A stretch of DNA of 20,857 nucleotides from a virus, in the IMG/VR virus record IMGVR_UViG_3300023174_000739, positions 1 through 20,857 of that record, one strand, 5' to 3'. The position numbers and the translations under genes are program-made. Below the pieces are notes generated by a model. The model was not told the DNA's origin and did not search any database. It saw only the letters and a list, made by a program, of their open reading frames with translations. Of the stretch, positions 3 to 13,459 are shown in pieces; the stretch's first letter is position 1, and each line of letters begins with the position of its first letter.

Positions 3-557
3 GCACACCAAATACATGTTTTTGCCTGTTCCGGTTCACAATACAAACTTGCTAACGGCGATGTAACTACCGAGATGATTCCTAATGAACAGCGTGACCG
101 TATCAAACTTTTGGTTGAAAAGGCTGCAATCGAACTAGGTTTATGGTGTGACAATCCGGTTGGTGCAATCATTGAAGATCGGCTTGCCCAAATCACTTAC
201 TCAGCTCTCGGTCAACAAGCATCACCTGAACAAAAATCTGATTGGGATGTTGACAAGCGTAAAAGAGAAAATCTGGTCAATCGTCTACAAAATCTGATTC
301 CAGGATTCGAGTTGCGCATCGGTGGTAGTACAAGCATAGACATAACCCCTATTGGTCGTGACAAAGCATATGGCATCACAAAGTTTATGAATCTGGTTGA
401 AGTTGATCCGTTAGAAACCGTTTATGTAGGCGATTCTTTCTCGAATTCTGGTAACGACTTTCCGGTTCTAAGTACGGGCGTGTTTTGTGTTGAAGTTTCT
501 GGTTGGGAACAAACCCTTGATTTGATGAAATGGTTGAATCGTGAGCAAGTTTCCTAA
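3..557 (+). CDS. HAD-IIB (phosphomannomutase-like) phosphatase, 5'-truncated
   Basis: The reading frame is open from the first bases of the window, so the N terminus (with HAD motifs I and II) lies outside it; 184 residues are visible. An ATG at position 75 exists, but the protein clearly continues upstream of it (FACSGSQYKLANGD). Two features place it in the HAD superfamily, type IIB cap class, where eukaryotic-type phosphomannomutases and sugar phosphatases belong: a cap-to-core segment GGSTSIDITPIGRDKAYGI, with the Lys expected for motif III, and a clear motif IV VYVGDSFSNSGNDFPVL with the acidic Asp residues that hold Mg2+. It would act on a sugar or polyol phosphate in the cytoplasm. The next gene starts inside its last codons. 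A role in supplying an activated sugar to the glycosyltransferases 11 kb downstream is inference. The exact substrate cannot be told. Confidence 0.75.
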   Translation, partial: AHQIHVFACSGSQYKLANGDVTTEMIPNEQRDRIKLLVEKAAIELGLWCDNPVGAIIEDRLAQITYSALGQQASPEQKSDWDVDKRKRENLVNRLQNLIPGFELRIGGSTSIDITPIGRDKAYGITKFMNLVEVDPLETVYVGDSFSNSGNDFPVLSTGVFCVEVSGWEQTLDLMKWLNREQVS

Positions 558-5980: not shown

Positions 5981-6118
5981 GTGCTACCAACAACTTTTCA
6001 GATCGTAGGGATTGCTGTTATAGCAATTGGCTTGGGTCTTGTTTACGCACCTGTAGGTGTTATTGCTTTGGGTGCTGGCATTTTACTTTTCGGTTTGGCT
6101 TTGGAACGGAGTAAGTAA
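5981..6118 (+). CDS. Small two-helix membrane protein (45 aa)
   Basis: A 45-residue frame starting at GTG 5981, eight bases after the terminase stop, with AGGCGG as a weak ribosome site. It ends in a TAATG overlap with the portal ATG. The sequence is two hydrophobic Gly-rich segments (about residues 7-20 and 24-41) separated by VYAP, with an ERSK tail. Tiny membrane proteins between terminase and portal genes are common in actinophages. Its function is unknown. The close packing and stop-start overlap make it a likely real gene. Confidence 0.6.
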   Translation: MLPTTFQIVGIAVIAIGLGLVYAPVGVIALGAGILLFGLALERSK

Positions 6119-7407
6119 TGCTAGGTAACTTGTTCGGGGAATCTCGCGCATTGTCGTATCAGCAAGTTTTCGCTAATGGCGAGGACTTCACTACTCAAAC
6201 TGAAGCTGGCGTTGTAATCAACAACGATACGGCTTACAAGATTGTTGCTTTCTTCTCAGCCGTGTCACTCTACTCGGACACTATCTCTACGCTTCCTGTT
6301 GACGCTTTTATTCGTCTTGATGGTGACCGGAAACCTTACCGACCTAAGCCAACATGGATTGACCAGCCAGATGTTGATACGACTCGTCAAGCACACTACG
6401 GTCAGGTCGTTACCTCGCTACTTGTAAACGGTAACTCTTACACTCGCGTATTTCGTGACCGTGCAGGTGATGTTGTAAACCTTGTTGTTCTTGATCCGCT
6501 AAAGGTCAAAGTTGAACGCTCAGGTATTGGTCGCAAAGTTTTTATTGTTGATGGCGAAAGCAAACCTTTAACAAGTAAAGAAGTCATCCACATCGTTGAC
6601 CTAGCCATTCCAGGTTCACTCGTTGGTGCAAGCCGTATCGAGAAACTAAAAGACTCTCTAGGTGTTGCTACTGCTTTACAAAACTATGCAGCTCGCTTCT
6701 TCTCACAAGGTGCAACAACTCAGGGCATCATTGAAGTGCCAGGTAACCTGCTACCAAACCAACTTAAAGACTTGGCTGATGGATTCGACTCTCGCCACCG
6801 AGGTTTCCGCAAAGCACATAAAACCGGAGTGCTTTTTGGCGGAGCAACCTATAAGCAGACGACAGTTCCCAACGACCAAGCCCAATTCCTTGACTCACGC
6901 CGTTTTGCTGTTGAGGAAATCGCTCGAGCATTTAACATTCCACTACACCTTATGGGTATCCCTGGAACAAACACTTACTCATCTGTTGAACAGAACAACC
7001 TTCAATGGATCAGCCACGGCCTTAGACCTATTCTGGAAAAGATTGAGTGGGCATACTCTCAACTACTTCCAACAACTGCATTTATCAAGTTCAACTTCAA
7101 CGCTCTACTGCGTGGAGATCTACAATCTCGTGCAACTGCTTACAGCATTCTTCTACAGCAAGGTGCAAGCACAATCAATGAAGTTCGTAAACTTGAAGAT
7201 CTACCACCTATTGATGGTGGCGATATTGCTCGTGTACCACTAGCCAACGTTGGTTTGCCAGCAGCAGATTTGCAAGCTACACAAATCCGTATCGGTATGG
7301 CTGACACGCTTATTAAGGATGGTTTTGATCCGGCAGCTGTATTGTCTGCTTTGAAACTACCACCGATTGATCAGGCTACACAACCACCAGCAAATACAGG
7401 TGCATAA
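6118..7407 (+). CDS. Portal protein (HK97 family)
   Basis: A 429-residue portal, which forms the dodecameric ring at the head vertex through which DNA enters and leaves. Family features are visible in order: FFSAVSLYSDTISTLPVDAF near the N terminus (residues about 45-64), LLVNGNSYTRVFRD (about 101-114), the IPGSLVGASRIEKLKDSLG segment followed by the AARFFSQGA helix, then VEEIARAFNIPLHLMGI and the YSSVEQNNLQWISHGLRPILEKIEWA clip/stem helices. The C terminus is a Pro/Ala-rich tail. The ATG overlaps the stop of the small membrane gene, and its own TAA overlaps the next ATG. Length and motifs agree with a complete protein. Confidence 0.95.
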   Translation: MLGNLFGESRALSYQQVFANGEDFTTQTEAGVVINNDTAYKIVAFFSAVSLYSDTISTLPVDAFIRLDGDRKPYRPKPTWIDQPDVDTTRQAHYGQVVTSLLVNGNSYTRVFRDRAGDVVNLVVLDPLKVKVERSGIGRKVFIVDGESKPLTSKEVIHIVDLAIPGSLVGASRIEKLKDSLGVATALQNYAARFFSQGATTQGIIEVPGNLLPNQLKDLADGFDSRHRGFRKAHKTGVLFGGATYKQTTVPNDQAQFLDSRRFAVEEIARAFNIPLHLMGIPGTNTYSSVEQNNLQWISHGLRPILEKIEWAYSQLLPTTAFIKFNFNALLRGDLQSRATAYSILLQQGASTINEVRKLEDLPPIDGGDIARVPLANVGLPAADLQATQIRIGMADTLIKDGFDPAAVLSALKLPPIDQATQPPANTGA

Positions 7408-7667
7408 TGGCTATTACTACAGCAAAAACAACTATAACTACATCTGCTGGTGCTGTCGGTTCAAGTAGCCCAAACCCTTATGTTTTGATTATTCGTAATG
7501 AACACGCTACAACAAGCGTTCACATTGGCAACTCAACGGTTACTGCTGCAAACGGTTTAGAACTTGCAGGTAAAAGCACTATTGAACTTAATCTGGCCGC
7601 TGCCGATCAAGTTTATGCAATAACAGCTTCAGGCACTAGCGACATTAGTTGGATGAAGATTTATTAA
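7407..7667 (+). CDS. Small beta-rich virion-associated protein (86 aa), candidate head decoration
   Basis: An 86-residue protein in TAATG overlaps on both sides. It is rich in Thr, Ser, Ala and alternating hydrophobic residues (VLIIRNEHATTSVHIGNSTV, then ADQVYAITASGTSDISWMKIY), which predicts one small beta-sandwich. It has no Cys and no membrane segment. Similar short beta proteins sit between portal and protease genes in other actinophages. The fold and place suit a capsid-surface or head-associated protein, but no family was identified with certainty. Confidence 0.65.
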   Translation: MAITTAKTTITTSAGAVGSSSPNPYVLIIRNEHATTSVHIGNSTVTAANGLELAGKSTIELNLAAADQVYAITASGTSDISWMKIY

Positions 7668-9595
7668 TGCCATACTTTATTACTGATAAAGCCAATGGTT
7701 GCTCTGGATGGGCAACTGTTAAAGAGGGTGGCGAAGTTCTTGGATGCCACACCTCTAAAAAGGCTGCTATCGGTCACATGGTTGCTATCTCACTTGCTGA
7801 GAACATGAAACCTGGTGGACAAATAGGTAAGCGTAATGCTTCAGGTCAGAAAATCATTATTAGCGACATTGATGGCACTCTTATTGCTGGTGGTCGTTTA
7901 ATTCAGAAAACTTATGATTACATCAAAACCCTTGAGGGCAACCTATTCATTGTGACTGGTAGACCAGCATCACAACGCTCCGAAACTGCTAATCAACTAC
8001 ACAATCTTGGTGTGCGTTATTCACGACTTATTATGAACAATAGTTCGACTGCTACTAGCCCCGAGTATAAAAAAGCAACAGCCGAACGATTACTCAAAAC
8101 TTACAATGTAGTTGCTGCTATTGAAAATAACCCAACTGCTTTAGGTTACTATCGTGATCTCGGTATTGATGGAGTGAATCCATCAACTATCAAGGCTGAT
8201 ACTAAACGTGAACTGCGTGTAGACACTATTGCACCACCTAGTTACATGCGAGCTGCTGCTAGGCGTGGATTGAAGTATTACCAAGAAGGTAAGGGTGGTG
8301 CAGGTTTAGTTCCTGCAACTATTCGTGAAGCTCGTGAAATGGCGGCTGGCCGTGTATCTGCAGATAAATGGGTTCGCCTTTCTGCGTGGATTGCTCGTCA
8401 TTTACCTGATCTTGATGCCCCTAAAAATAAGAACGCTACTGACCCTAACTATCCTGGTGCTGGTCTAGTTGCACATTTACTTTGGGGTTCAGGGCCAACT
8501 AAGCGTCAAGCATTGAGAGCAAAACAGTTTGCTGATTCAGTTGTTGATAGACTGAAAGCATCAGGTGAAAGAGAAGTAATGATTGAAGAACAACGTGCAA
8601 GTCTAGACAGCATCGCTGTTGGTGATTGGGTGTCTTGGACTCCACTACTTGAGGATGAACCAGAGTACGGTCAAGTGGCTGAAATTCTTGGCGTTCAAGC
8701 CTTAGTTAAGTGTTTCGATGAAGAAGCAAATACATGGTTTGAATCTGACGAAACCTCACTTGTATTGATTGCAGATCTTGACAAAATTCAACCACTTACG
8801 AACACGAACATGATTGAAGATGAAATGTCTATGAGCAATCGTTCTAAATGGATTCGTGCAGCATGGGCTATCAAAGCGCGTATTGAGGGTTTACCTTCTG
8901 AAGTTCGGTCAGTTGATGGCAAAGAGGTTCGCACTAATCACACCGAGTTTGAAATCCGTGATAGCACCGACGGCATGACTATTAGTGGATATGCTGCCGT
9001 TTTTAACAGCGATAGCGAACCATTACCATTTATTGAACGTATAGCCCCTGGTGCTTTCACCCGTTCACTCAAAGCTCGTAACGAAATCAAACTGTTGTGG
9101 AATCACGACAGCGGTGAACCTATGGCATCGTTGCGTGGTGGAAGTCTAAAGATTTGGGAAGATGCTAAAGGACTTGCTTACGAAGCTACTCTCGCTAACA
9201 CTACTCGTGGTCGTGATGTTGCAGAGCTTATCCGCAGCAAAGTTATTGATGCGATGTCATTTGGTTTCAATGTCATCAAAGACACTTGGGATGAGCGTGG
9301 CAACCGAACTCTTAATGCTGTCAGAATTCACGAAATTTCAGTAGTTAGTTATCCGGCATATACGGCCACTTCAGGAACAGTATCGGTGCGATCCGCTGAA
9401 GGCACGATTGATGCGGAAGCCCTAGCTGATGCTCTGCTCAAATTAGAGTCTGGTGAGGAACTAGAGTCTGATCACGCAAACCTGATCATGGATGTTGTTT
9501 CTAAACTACAGAAAACTCCAGAAGTCGAGGAAGTATCAGGCAACATCCTAGACTTGAAACAGAAACAACTTGAACTACTACTTAAGAAGGTTTAA
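7667..9595 (+). CDS. Multidomain capsid maturation protease with inserted HAD domain (642 aa)
   Basis: The ATG at 7667 (TAATG overlap) is preferred over 7649. Five parts are visible. (1) Residues 1-50, MPYFITDKANGCSGWATVKE, the Cys-Gly-Trp start of actinophage protease polyproteins. (2) Residues 62-183, a HAD phosphatase-like domain: SDIDGTL (D67, D69), IVTGRP (T97) and AIENNPTALGYY as an acidic motif IV. (3) Residues about 185-300, the helical APPSYMRAAARRGLKYY ... PGAGLVAHLLWG domain common next to phage proteases. (4) Residues about 312-377, an SH3/Tudor-like VGDWVSW ... LDKIQPL domain. (5) Residues about 425-575, the HK97-type (U35) prohead protease with GYAAVFNSDSE, the His of LLWNHD (H480) and the Ser of AMSFGF (S531). 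It processes capsid shells. The HAD insertion is unusual. Confidence 0.88.
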   Translation: MPYFITDKANGCSGWATVKEGGEVLGCHTSKKAAIGHMVAISLAENMKPGGQIGKRNASGQKIIISDIDGTLIAGGRLIQKTYDYIKTLEGNLFIVTGRPASQRSETANQLHNLGVRYSRLIMNNSSTATSPEYKKATAERLLKTYNVVAAIENNPTALGYYRDLGIDGVNPSTIKADTKRELRVDTIAPPSYMRAAARRGLKYYQEGKGGAGLVPATIREAREMAAGRVSADKWVRLSAWIARHLPDLDAPKNKNATDPNYPGAGLVAHLLWGSGPTKRQALRAKQFADSVVDRLKASGEREVMIEEQRASLDSIAVGDWVSWTPLLEDEPEYGQVAEILGVQALVKCFDEEANTWFESDETSLVLIADLDKIQPLTNTNMIEDEMSMSNRSKWIRAAWAIKARIEGLPSEVRSVDGKEVRTNHTEFEIRDSTDGMTISGYAAVFNSDSEPLPFIERIAPGAFTRSLKARNEIKLLWNHDSGEPMASLRGGSLKIWEDAKGLAYEATLANTTRGRDVAELIRSKVIDAMSFGFNVIKDTWDERGNRTLNAVRIHEISVVSYPAYTATSGTVSVRSAEGTIDAEALADALLKLESGEELESDHANLIMDVVSKLQKTPEVEEVSGNILDLKQKQLELLLKKV

Positions 9596-9949: not shown

Positions 9950-11119
9950 ATGTCTGAATTTGCAAAATTTCAGTCTGAGGCTCGTGCTAAGGCTTGGGAA
10001 GCAGCAAAGTCAATTCTTGACCGTGCCGCTGAAGAGAAGCGCGATCTAACTGCTGAAGAGAACGTTCAATACGAGCGTATTTCTGCTGAACTTGACGAGC
10101 GTGCTGCGCTTATCGAGTCGGCAAACAACCTAGCTGCTCGTGAAGAACGTGCTGCTGAGGCTGCTGCCTCATTCACCCCTTCGGCTACCCGTTCGGTTGA
10201 TGACAGCGACCTACTTCGTGCTATCGCTATGGGCGAGTCACGCGGACACGAGTTCATCTCGGAAAAGCGTACCATCGTATCAAGCGACAACACCGTTCCA
10301 AAGTCGTTCTACAACCAGGTATTCCAGATTGCTCGCCTCGCTGGCCCAATGCTAGATGTCGCTGATGTAATCAACACCACTTCGGGCGAGAACCTAACCA
10401 TCCCAACCCTAACTGCTCGTAGCACCGCTACTATCAAGGGTCAGGGAACTGCAATCGCAGAGTCCGAGCCAACCTTCAGCTCGATCACTCTCGGTGCGTT
10501 CAAGTACTCGTTCCTTGTACCTGTAGCCAACGAACTGCTTACCGATGCAGGTTTCGACCTTTCATCGCTAATTGCAGAACAGGCTGGTAACGCAATCGGT
10601 TTCGCAGTCAACACCGGACTAACCTCTGGTACTGGAACTGCAGAACCGACTGGTATCCTAACCGCAGCTTCGTCTGCTGTTACTGGTGGAACTGGTGTAT
10701 CTGGTGTACCAACCTACGAAAACCTCGTAGACCTCGTGTACGCACTTGATGGTCAGGCTCGTCTACTTCCAGGAGTAGGCTTCCTAACTGGCAAGTCAGC
10801 TATCGCTGCTATCCGCAAAATCAAGGATGGTGCAGGTAACTACATCTTTACTCCTGCAACTGCTGGTCAGCCAGACCAGATCCTCGGTTACCGCCTAATC
10901 GAGAACCCTGCTATGCCAGCAACCGCTGTCGGTGCAAAGTCGGTTCTCTTTGGTCACCTACCTTCATACAAGGTTCGTACCGCTGGTGGAATCAAGGTTG
11001 CACAGTCAACCGATTACGCTTTCGACAAGGATCTAACCACGTTCCGTGTCACCATGCGCGTAGACGGTAACTTGACCCACTCGGCTCACGCTGTATGGTT
11101 CAAGGGTGGCGCAAGCTAA
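9950..11119 (+). CDS. Major capsid protein (HK97 fold)
   Basis: A 389-residue protein. TAGGAG (9939-9944) is five bases before the ATG at 9950, so the longer frame from 9905 is rejected. Residues 1-75 are a charged coiled-coil delta/scaffold domain (AKAWEAAKSILDRAAEEKRDL), which the HK97-type protease upstream would remove. The mature part has the expected order: SSDNTVPKSFYNQVFQIARL, the E-loop/strand region GENLTIPTLTARS, FKYSFLVPVANELLTD, NTGLTSGTGTAEPTGIL, and the C-terminal KVRTAGGIKVAQSTDYAFDKD ... RVDGNLTHSAHAVWF. Codons favour AAC, TAC and ATC, unlike neighbours, as in very highly expressed genes. It is isolated by terminators on both sides, which suits separate strong late expression. 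Confidence 0.95.
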   Translation: MSEFAKFQSEARAKAWEAAKSILDRAAEEKRDLTAEENVQYERISAELDERAALIESANNLAAREERAAEAAASFTPSATRSVDDSDLLRAIAMGESRGHEFISEKRTIVSSDNTVPKSFYNQVFQIARLAGPMLDVADVINTTSGENLTIPTLTARSTATIKGQGTAIAESEPTFSSITLGAFKYSFLVPVANELLTDAGFDLSSLIAEQAGNAIGFAVNTGLTSGTGTAEPTGILTAASSAVTGGTGVSGVPTYENLVDLVYALDGQARLLPGVGFLTGKSAIAAIRKIKDGAGNYIFTPATAGQPDQILGYRLIENPAMPATAVGAKSVLFGHLPSYKVRTAGGIKVAQSTDYAFDKDLTTFRVTMRVDGNLTHSAHAVWFKGGAS

Positions 11120-11214: not shown

Positions 11215-12396
11215 ATGGGTAAGAAAAAAGTTGTTTCTGTTTGGTCTAATAGTCCGTATCAGCCAACAGGTTATGGGGTGCAAGCCGGACTGCTTGTTGA
11301 TCGTTTGAAACGTGATGGTTACGAAGTTGCTGCGCTTTCTAACTATGGCCTTGAAGGTAACAATTCGACTTTACAAACCCCACATGGTGAAATACCACAT
11401 TACGCTCGTGGCATGGAAGCCTACTCTAACGATGTAGCACCAATGCATCATCATCATTGGCTACAGCAACACCCTGATGCTAAAGATCTATTTATTACTC
11501 TTTATGATGTGTGGGTGCTAAAGGGTTCTGCATGGGACAAGATGCGTAACATAGCTTCTTGGACTCCGCTAGATCACATCACAATGCCACCAAAGGTTGA
11601 AGCCTGGTTGCGTAAAGACAATGTGACACCTATTGCTATGTCACCTTTTGGTCAAAAACAAATGATAGACAAAGGCATTGATTGTCTATACATTCCTCAC
11701 GCTATTGACACGAAAGTGATGAAACCAACTTTTGAAATCAATGGTGTTGCAACTCGTGAGTATCTAGGTTTTAAGGAAACTGACTTTATTGTTGGCATGG
11801 TGGCTGCTAATAAAGCCTCTGGTCTATTTCATCGTAAAGCGTTCTCTGAGAACTTGATGGCTTTTAGTATCTTCTTGCAGTCACATCCTGATGCAAAACT
11901 CTATTTGCACACAGATCCTTTGGGTTCTGCTGGTGGCTGGAATCTGTTGAAACTTTGCGAAGCAGCTGGCATACCTGACTCAGCTGTGCGTTTCCCTAAT
12001 CTTGTTGATTACAAGTACGGTATTGCACCGGAAGTATTAGCTGCGTTTATGACCACGATGGATGTGATGCTTGCTACTTCGTATGGTGAGGGTTTTGGTG
12101 TACCAACTGTTGAAACTCAAGCATGTGGTACACGCGTTATTGGTTCGTCATGGGCCGCAACACCTGACCTTGTTGCTGAGGATTGTTTCTTAGTTGAGGG
12201 TCAGCCTATGTGGGATTCGGGTCAGGATGCTTGGTGGTCTATGCCCCTGATTCCCTCGATTCTCCAGGCTTTGCAACTTGCTTATGATGCGCCTCGTGAA
12301 CGCTCGCAGACTTGTATAGATTTTGCATCACAGTTTGATGTTGAAAAAGTTTGGGACAAGTATTGGATTCCAGCCCTAGACAAACTGTTTGCATGA
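11215..12396 (+). CDS. Glycosyltransferase family 4-like (GT-B)
   Basis: A 393-residue glycosyltransferase that would move a sugar from a nucleotide-sugar donor to an acceptor. The N-terminal Rossmann domain opens with VVSVWSNSPYQPTGYGVQAG, the Gly-rich acceptor-side loop. The C-terminal domain has FIVGMVAANKASGLFHRKAF (donor phosphate-binding Arg-Lys) and the EX7E signature EGFGVPTVETQACGTRVI (E292, E300). GAAAGGT precedes the ATG. It is the first gene of a three-gene cassette between capsid and connector genes, and its TGA overlaps the ATG of the next. Phages with such genes near the head genes can glycosylate capsid or tail proteins; this target is inferred from place. No signal peptide or membrane helix is seen. 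Confidence 0.88.
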   Translation: MGKKKVVSVWSNSPYQPTGYGVQAGLLVDRLKRDGYEVAALSNYGLEGNNSTLQTPHGEIPHYARGMEAYSNDVAPMHHHHWLQQHPDAKDLFITLYDVWVLKGSAWDKMRNIASWTPLDHITMPPKVEAWLRKDNVTPIAMSPFGQKQMIDKGIDCLYIPHAIDTKVMKPTFEINGVATREYLGFKETDFIVGMVAANKASGLFHRKAFSENLMAFSIFLQSHPDAKLYLHTDPLGSAGGWNLLKLCEAAGIPDSAVRFPNLVDYKYGIAPEVLAAFMTTMDVMLATSYGEGFGVPTVETQACGTRVIGSSWAATPDLVAEDCFLVEGQPMWDSGQDAWWSMPLIPSILQALQLAYDAPRERSQTCIDFASQFDVEKVWDKYWIPALDKLFA

Positions 12397-13040
12397 TTCC
12401 CGTAATCGGTTTTGCGACAGTTAAGAGGTTTGACCTTGCGGATCGCTTAGTTAAATCTATTGACTATCCCGTTGAGCATTTGGTCATCATTGATAACTCC
12501 GGCACGGGCACTTACTTGCCCCCTGAAAATGATTTTGTAAAACAAGTTTGGGTACTACCTATACCATTTGGTTTAGGTCTAGTTGGTGCGTGGAATCTGA
12601 TTATTAAATCAACTCCATATGCGCCTTATTGGGTTTGCATAAATGATGATGCATGGTTTGAACCAGGTGCGCTAGAAGTTATTGCCAACAAAGCTGACCC
12701 GTCTACAATCAACTTCCCGAGCATTATTCCGCATTGGTCTTGTGCAATTTTTGGTGAAGGCGTAGTAAATAAAGTTGGCTTGTACGACGAGCGTTTCTAT
12801 CCTCTATATTTTGATGACAATGACATGGAACGCCGGATGCAACATCACGGTTTTGAAATAAACTGGATTGATGCCCAGGTACATCACGACAACAGTTCAA
12901 CACTAAACTCTGGCTTTCAGGATGCTAATGGTCGCACTTATGGAAAGAATCAGAAACTTCTGGATGAAAAGATTTCCAGCGAGGACTTCTCTGAAGGTAA
13001 CTGGAGTTTGCAAGTGCGAAGGGATAACCGTTGGGACTAA
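12393..13040 (+). CDS. Glycosyltransferase family 2-like (GT-A)
   Basis: A 215-residue protein starting in an ATGA overlap with the GT4 gene. GT-A features: VIGFATVKRFDLADRLVKSI at the N terminus, LVIIDNSGTG (nucleotide binding), GLVGAWNLII, then the metal-binding INDDAWF (D85, D86) and the late acidic FYPLYFDDNDMERRM (D141-D144), a usual position for the catalytic base, followed by VHHDNSS, whose His residues often complete the metal site. It resembles the rhamnosyl/galactosyl-transferase-like GT2 group. It is compact, with no membrane helices, so it is probably cytoplasmic and acts with GT4 to build a short glycan. Its donor sugar cannot be told. Confidence 0.88.
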   Translation: MIPVIGFATVKRFDLADRLVKSIDYPVEHLVIIDNSGTGTYLPPENDFVKQVWVLPIPFGLGLVGAWNLIIKSTPYAPYWVCINDDAWFEPGALEVIANKADPSTINFPSIIPHWSCAIFGEGVVNKVGLYDERFYPLYFDDNDMERRMQHHGFEINWIDAQVHHDNSSTLNSGFQDANGRTYGKNQKLLDEKISSEDFSEGNWSLQVRRDNRWD

Positions 13041-13459
13041 TCGTTTACACGGGCGGAACATTCGATCTATTCCACTTAGGCCATGTGGCGTTTCTGAGGC
13101 GTTGTGCAGAGATAGGCTCTGTGACTGTTTCGTTGAATACTGACGAGTTTATTGAAGCGTATAAGGGTAGCCCACCCGTAGTGTCTTACTCTGAGCGTGA
13201 AGCTGTGTTGCTTGGCTGCCGTTATGTAGATGCTGTTGTAGCAAATCATGGCGGGGCAGATTCTAAGATTGCTATTCAACAAGTAAAGCCCGACCTGGTT
13301 GTTGTCGGGTCTGATTGGGCTAGGCGTGACTACTACAAGCAGATGCTTTTTGATCAAGATTGGCTTGATGCCCGTGGCATTGGTCTTTGCTACATTCCTT
13401 ACACAAATGGCATTAGCACGACAGCATTGAAGAAGCGTATTGTAGAGCAAGTAAAATAG
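13031..13459 (+). CDS. TagD-like cytidylyltransferase (glycerol-3-phosphate type)
   Basis: A 142-residue nucleotidyltransferase starting at TTG 13031, with GAAGGGA (about 13018-13024) before it and a 10-base overlap with the GT2 gene. Motifs are complete: YTGGTFDLFHLGH (HxGH at 15-18) for CTP binding, RYVDAV (64-69), VKPDLVVVGSDW (86-96) and ISTTALKKR (128-136), the ISTT-K/R end. This matches glycerol-3-phosphate cytidylyltransferases (TagD/GCT), which make CDP-glycerol; related enzymes use ethanolamine phosphate, choline phosphate or sugar phosphates (RfaE/HldE type use ATP). The partner glycosyltransferases suggest a CDP-activated alcohol or sugar used for virion decoration. The substrate is unproven. 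Confidence 0.88.
   Translation: MGLIVYTGGTFDLFHLGHVAFLRRCAEIGSVTVSLNTDEFIEAYKGSPPVVSYSEREAVLLGCRYVDAVVANHGGADSKIAIQQVKPDLVVVGSDWARRDYYKQMLFDQDWLDARGIGLCYIPYTNGISTTALKKRIVEQVK

Follow-up and report, generated by a model that had tools for sequence, protein, structure and literature searches.

A polynucleotide phosphatase-like HAD module in the head maturation protease of a freshwater phage

The protease gene and its late-gene neighbourhood

The DNA analyzed in this study (hereafter, the window) is a 20,857-base IMG/VR virus record, a genome fragment of approximately 21 kb belonging to a freshwater phage. Its late genes occur in the order terminase, portal, small protein, protease, capsid protein, two glycosyltransferase genes, cytidylyltransferase, and more late genes. 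The ATG of the protease gene overlaps the stop codon of the upstream ORF (TAATG), and its Peptidase_S78 domain (U35 is the older name of S78) sits between the portal and capsid genes, as in S78 head maturation proteases. In-house profiles were used for six modules, namely N, H (HAD), C, T, P (protease), and Z. The genes and modules of this part of the window are as follows:

6118-7407, portal gene
7667-9595, + strand, head maturation protease gene of 642 aa with the modules N-HAD-C-T-S78-coil, from the ORF, Pfam, PHROG, and module profiles
7667-7822, + strand, N module (residues 1-52, the CSGWATVKE...GCH segment), matched by PHROG 80, head maturation protease
7832-8206, + strand, HAD phosphatase module (56-180) with a predicted PNKP 3'-phosphatase-like fold, from profiles, predicted structure, and conservation
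8237-8536, + strand, helical C module (191-290), which other phage proteases and portal proteins also have
8591-8818, + strand, Tudor-like T module (309-384), weakly modelled, from module profiles and the model
8951-9400, + strand, Peptidase_S78 domain (429-578), profile search E value 4.7e-45
9440-9586, + strand, C-terminal module Z (592-640), from its module profile
9950-11119, + strand, HK97-type major capsid protein with an N-terminal delta-like region, matched by PF05065 from residue 114

In each of the 181 multi-module ORFs with an N module, this module comes first. The C module matched predicted phage proteases and portal proteins in BFVD but no Pfam family, and neither C nor T had a convincing PDB match to its fold. 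The BFVD matches of the C module also included ParB-like and other virion-linked proteins.

Identity and conservation of the HAD domain

According to the initial annotation, a full HAD domain follows the CSGWATVKE segment and precedes the helical, Tudor-like, and protease parts; both the profiles and the model bear this out. The position given there, 7850-8215 (residues 62-183), is correct within a few residues, and 7832-8206 (56-180) is the closer fit to the limits of the module. A whole-protein Pfam search returned the HAD matches Acid_phosphat_B (1.3e-7) and Hydrolase_6 (4.6e-6). PHROG 415, annotated as polynucleotide kinase, matched protease residues 54-168 (2e-11), and the polynucleotide kinase profiles PHROG 415/505 were matched by 19 of 19 members, the best at 1.9e-19. 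The window sequence scored 20.3 with PF25109 (HAD_PNKP), under the gathering score of 27.6. No known non-catalytic linker family, the other identity that the initial annotation had considered, matched in the Pfam and PHROG profile searches.

The structure of residues 1-312 was predicted using AlphaFold2 from 28 homologs, a step that the annotation had proposed. The model had a mean pLDDT of 88.5, mostly above 90 over residues 61-170, and contained a HAD core at 55-174 as a separate domain; it matched many HAD structures with a Rossmann-like core over residues 55-178. Foldseek ranked bacterial Pnkp1 and the T4 Pnkp phosphatase at the top. A second structural alignment gave T4 Pnkp a Z score of 18.0 (1.8 A over 120 residues), followed by Pnkp1 (17.4), Nir2 LNS2 (14.7), and a plant vegetative storage protein (12.6). 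Residues 56-180 are a complete capless HAD domain. PNKP is the nearest HAD family by both fold and profile; in the profiles and the predicted structure, the nearest counterpart of the module is the 3'-phosphatase half of T4 polynucleotide kinase/phosphatase. The polynucleotide 3'-phosphatase-like character that had been envisaged for the domain therefore agrees with the predicted fold, for which T4 Pnkp phosphatase was the top structural match by a clear margin.

The HAD motifs named earlier are present (DIDGT at 67-71, TGR at 97-99, K135, and AIENN at 151-155). The catalytic features are as follows:

7865-7873, + strand, HAD motif I, D67-I-D69, both D invariant (93/93)
7955-7963, + strand, HAD motif II, T97-G-R99, T and R invariant (93/93), aligned to T4 S211/R213
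8069-8071, + strand, HAD motif III, K135, invariant (93/93)
8117-8131, + strand, HAD motif IV, AIENN (151-155), family consensus AIDN[DN]

The conservation set comprised 93 distinct HAD sequences, the window included. Residues D67, D69, T97, R99, T107, and K135 never varied, and position 153 of motif IV was acidic throughout (D in 80 sequences and E in 13). Loss of the acidic HAD residues in homologs, which the initial annotation had regarded as decisive against its proposal, was thus found in none of the 93. Position 154 was N in 92 of the 93 sequences and not a second acid. The overall identity of the HAD dropped to about 40% while the catalytic positions remained invariant, and the median dN/dS was 0.097 for the HAD versus 0.067 for the protease. 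This pattern of conservation makes an enzyme far more likely than a dead fold. A chance match or a decayed fragment was ruled out by the profile matches and the invariant motifs in the 93 sequences. An assembly chimera was likewise ruled out; the same fusion was present in the contigs L002 and L003 (95% identical), and relatives occurred in dozens of contigs.

The T4 protein Pnkp (PseT), bacterial Pnkp1, PHROG 415, and PF25109 carry DxDGT, [ST]GR, and AI[DE] at the same places as the window HAD, for which T4 Pnkp, Pnkp1, and PHROG 415 provide the best fold match and the best profile family. In the alignment with T4 Pnkp, the window residues D67, D69, T97, R99, and E153 correspond to D165, D167, S211, R213, and D277, and the arginine after motif II (T4 R213) is kept in all 93 sequences. 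Compared with T4 Pnkp, the window HAD lacks the kinase domain, is about 16-20% identical, has shorter inserts, and is fused to a capsid protease. The T4 residues R176 and D278 are important to the active site of that enzyme. The R176 position, at which the alignment has a gap, is R in only 40 of the 93 sequences, and the D278 equivalent is the nearly invariant N154; because of these two differences, the substrate may differ from that of T4 Pnkp.

Distribution of the module and E-x-R triplets

We compared the window protein with its HAD-less siblings. The L005/L006 and L007/L008 proteins were 92% and 83% identical to it over residues 180-642 and about 70% identical over the first 52-56 residues, and the DNA block missing from these siblings spans about 7819-8215 or 7835-8202. 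Among the HAD-bearing ORFs, 125 of 155 have the HAD in the protease gene; many of the remaining ORFs are cut contigs or genes adjoining the protease. The commonest module orders were N-H-C-P-Z (52 ORFs) and N-C-H-P-Z (18), counts in which some loci are one contig fetched twice. Rarer orders were N-T-H-C-P-Z, N-H-T-P-Z, and N-H-P, and L111 has P-H, with the HAD behind the protease. On the protease tree, the presence of the HAD changed at least five times; its position label changed approximately 17 times, an overcount because some contigs are cut. Many sister phages have no HAD, and the same slots elsewhere hold a CxxC zinc-ribbon-like block, a DUF5824 block, or Hva1-Tudor-like domains. The initial annotation had considered the HAD a non-standard part of such a protease. 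The domain does lie in the protease; N-terminal fusions, however, are common in this group, and the HAD is one of several interchangeable modules. From these comparisons, the HAD is a clean, mobile module that relatives appear to gain, lose, move, or split off. In bacterial genomes, only four weak relatives were identified, none with the protease modules.

The DUF5824 block (L070, 3533-4000) lies between C and the protease in some relatives and is also part of a PHROG annotated as cytidyltransferase.

The HAD also occurs in genes of its own. In L040, L044, L045, L047, and L117, the modules N-H-C with a zinc-ribbon-like tail, in which a CxNC...C pattern is conserved, form a 426-aa ORF, and a separate protease ORF comes directly after it. 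Between L040 and L044, 18% of the tail residues differ, with a tail dN of 0.093 and dS of 0.497. A sequencing error as the source of the split was rejected, since five contigs have it and dN is well below dS in every segment, the tail included; no evidence emerged for a programmed frameshift joining the two ORFs, the second of which has an ATG of its own about 20-25 bases past the stop of the first. In L198, a 212-aa N-H ORF is flanked by an S78 protease ORF and a capsid-like ORF; the order of protease and then N-H recurs in L193-L195. L182 (2649-4228) and L184 (3871-5366) each contain a bare HAD ORF overlapping the end of an N-C-T ORF that has no protease domain, and L106 (510-917) has another among structural-looking genes. 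These split, N-H, and bare genes indicate that the HAD can occur without being part of the protease, yet it remains near head genes.

E-x-R triplets were located in both the protease and the capsid protein:

8210-8218, + strand, E-L-R (182-184) in the linker joining HAD and C, with R184 shared by all 28 aligned proteins
8588-8596, + strand, E-Q-R (308-310) in the C/T linker
8900-8932, + strand, two E-V-R triplets (412-414 and 420-422) immediately ahead of the protease domain, at which the protease might cut itself
10262-10270, + strand, E-K-R (105-107) in the capsid protein, at its delta/mature boundary, E-x-R in 81/81 capsid proteins

At the capsid boundary, the triplet is invariant in all 81 distinct capsid proteins with a variable middle residue, and R107 stands shortly before the start of the PF05065 match at residue 114. 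This invariant E-x-R before the capsid fold is a candidate maturation cleavage site of the phage group. In the protease, 115 of the 116 distinct junctions that lead straight into the protease domain contain an E-x-R (C-P 71/71, H-P 36/37, and T-P 8/8). Its frequencies at the HAD borders were 9/47 for N-H, 16/47 for H-C, and 1/21 for C-H, and the idea of E-x-R as a universal module separator was rejected because almost all junctions before the protease domain have the triplet, whereas most HAD borders do not. The HAD/C linker is disordered in the model despite its invariant R184. Across these related junction sequences, E-x-R occurred 75 times versus 34 expected from shuffles, and the reversed R-x-E occurred 31 times versus 35 expected; part of the enrichment may be the N-terminal strand of S78. 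Some arginine lies just before every module in 181 of 181 distinct junction strings versus 71% of random 17-residue stretches, a figure that is no clean probability because the junction sequences are related. The simplest reading of the junctions is that self-cleavage would release the protease from an N-HAD-C(-T) protein, the same unit for which the split phages have a separate gene.

Possible roles of the fused phosphatase

We tentatively favor, at somewhat less than even probability, an active phosphatase of the PNKP branch that serves as an exchangeable cargo or effector of the head maturation polyprotein and that is packaged, ejected, and used to heal 3' ends. The repeated fusion to an enzyme that acts in the procapsid, together with the invariant catalytic residues, makes a phosphatase carried into the head the best explanation, and from the resemblance of its fold to PNKP, the substrate may be nucleic acid with 3'-phosphate ends. 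The N segment and the protease would carry the HAD into the procapsid; the N module, which the separately encoded HAD proteins retain, could serve as a targeting tag. During maturation, the protease would cut itself loose at the E-x-R just before its own domain and would cut the capsid protein at E-x-R too. This self-cleavage would leave an N-HAD-C unit resembling the separate protein of the split phages, and the unit would remain in the head and be ejected with the DNA. It could then strip 3'-phosphates from nicked or broken nucleic acid, either the phage genome ends or DNA or RNA damaged by host nucleases, which would let repair, ligation, or replication go on.

The fold match, the PHROG match, the invariant residues, the dN/dS, the module positions, the split genes, and the E-x-R triplets are all consistent with this proposed mechanism. 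Counting against it, E-x-R is not general at the HAD borders and the triplet before S78 may be part of the first strand; moreover, propeptides would generally be expected to be lost from the head, the HAD is absent from many sister phages, and the R176 and D278 positions differ from T4. A broader extension, in which the protease would be a self-processing cargo carrier in environmental, probably actinobacterial, phages and would deliver swappable, end-healing enzymes, cut at E-x-R, with the genome, is possible but doubtful.

The invariant active site and a dN/dS near 0.1 demand activity and not packaging. The same data would therefore suit a phosphatase that is active in the infected cell while assembly is under way and not in the particle, with the fusion serving for co-expression or for recruitment to head assembly. 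The substrates of such an enzyme could be nucleotides, 3'-phosphate ends prior to packaging, or another phosphometabolite, and the enzyme would be degraded or lost at maturation. The bare and split HAD genes in late-gene neighbourhoods agree with this possibility, as does the usual departure of propeptides from the head (PMC10052503). By itself, however, it leaves the repeated choice of the protease over other late genes unexplained, and we regard it as somewhat unlikely. A purely structural or assembly role, with the HAD fold as a folded spacer, a procapsid-core filler, or a protein-binding domain in which catalysis is unneeded, would explain why unrelated modules (zinc-ribbon-like, DUF5824, and Tudor-like) fill the same slots and why close siblings have none. 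A spacer would not need every catalytic position to stay invariant (93/93) at approximately 40% identity, and split and free-standing versions of the HAD exist, so this role appears improbable. The repeated fusion to the protease could also reflect a regulatory domain that, for example, removes a phosphate keeping the protease or the capsid protein inactive. Because the order of the modules and the distance to the protease vary, and because the HAD is separate or absent in siblings with the same protease, regulation is the explanation to which we give the least credence.

The initial annotation had raised a possible link between the HAD and virion decoration. HAD phosphatases include sugar-phosphate phosphatases, and in the window GT1, GT2, and the cytidylyltransferase gene come after the capsid gene, an arrangement that could suit a sugar-phosphate or nucleotide-sugar phosphatase acting with these genes in virion glycan decoration. 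We compared 14 distinct HAD-less relatives with 39 HAD-bearing relatives, and the results revealed no positive association of the HAD with glycosylation genes. Glycosyltransferase genes followed the capsid gene in 14 of 14 HAD-less relatives for which enough downstream sequence was available (GT1 and GT2 in each) versus 36 of 39 HAD carriers, and within the available sequence the cytidylyltransferase was present in 9 of 14 versus only 5 of 39. Three of the 39 HAD carriers have none of the glycosyltransferase or cytidylyltransferase genes. GT1 and GT2 are thus retained in most relatives with or without the HAD, and in the cultured phage phiPsal1, GT1 and GT2 genes are annotated while the HAD is missing. 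With a polynucleotide phosphatase as the best structural match in addition, a role in decoration is very improbable, and the proposed link did not hold.

The best cultured match of the protease is the prohead protease of Pontimonas phage phiPsal1 (Peptidase_S78 PF04586, PHROG 80), which shares the modules N, C, P, and Z and the gene order portal - protease - capsid - glycosyltransferases with the window but has a CxxC zinc-ribbon-like block at the site of the HAD. None of the HAD matches in cultured phages (the best 40 of 343 records and all records of further searches) was in a protease; they lie in kinase/phosphatase, HAD, or unnamed genes. Among open-access papers, literature searches turned up none on a HAD-protease fusion. 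The name "HAD-like domain containing protein" is given in BFVD to some related proteins of uncultured phages, which indicates that automatic annotation had already seen the domain. HAD enzymes, S78 proteases, and shuffled head polyproteins are already known kinds.

The main text of Iyer et al. 2017 (PMC5512222) presents polyvalent proteins and MuF/portal fusions as multidomain proteins with shuffled enzymatic modules that are encoded with head genes and thought to be injected. As described there, they resemble the window protease, likewise a multidomain head-gene product with shuffled enzymatic modules; the carriers in that account are MuF, portal, or large effector proteins, whereas in the window a maturation protease takes this part and its enzymatic module is a HAD phosphatase. 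The word "phosphatase" does not appear in the main text of that paper. In phage SPN3US, head proteins are cut by the prohead protease and many head proteins are ejected, and the propeptides that prohead proteases remove are as a rule not expected to stay in the head (PMC10052503). The substrates in SPN3US and T4-like phages are head-internal proteins matured by the protease, some of them ejected, as the candidate cargo here might be; the SPN3US substrates are, however, separate genes of a giant phage, whereas the candidate cargo here is fused to the protease on a fragment of approximately 21 kb. By analogy, SPN3US and the MuF/portal fusions would be precedents for single steps of the favored mechanism, not for their combination.

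Prohead proteases are usually viewed as single-purpose enzymes whose extensions are discarded. The repeated joining of an intact phosphatase to the protease at varied positions under strong selection suggests an enzyme attached to the head-assembly machinery and possibly carried in the particle. It also suggests a route by which phages with small genomes could bring an end-repair or counter-defence enzyme in at cell entry, and the protease gene would be a place to look for further cargo modules.

Two further genes pointed out by the initial annotation, a cytidylyltransferase and a second HAD-like gene, are real. The cytidylyltransferase ORF (PF01467, 8.4e-15) lies with the two glycosyltransferase genes at 11215-13459, between the capsid gene and the head-tail genes. 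The partial ORF at the start of the window (3-557) matches the C-terminal part of eukaryotic-type phosphomannomutase (PMM, a HAD protein, PF03332, 3.2e-9) and is unrelated to the HAD module of the protease.
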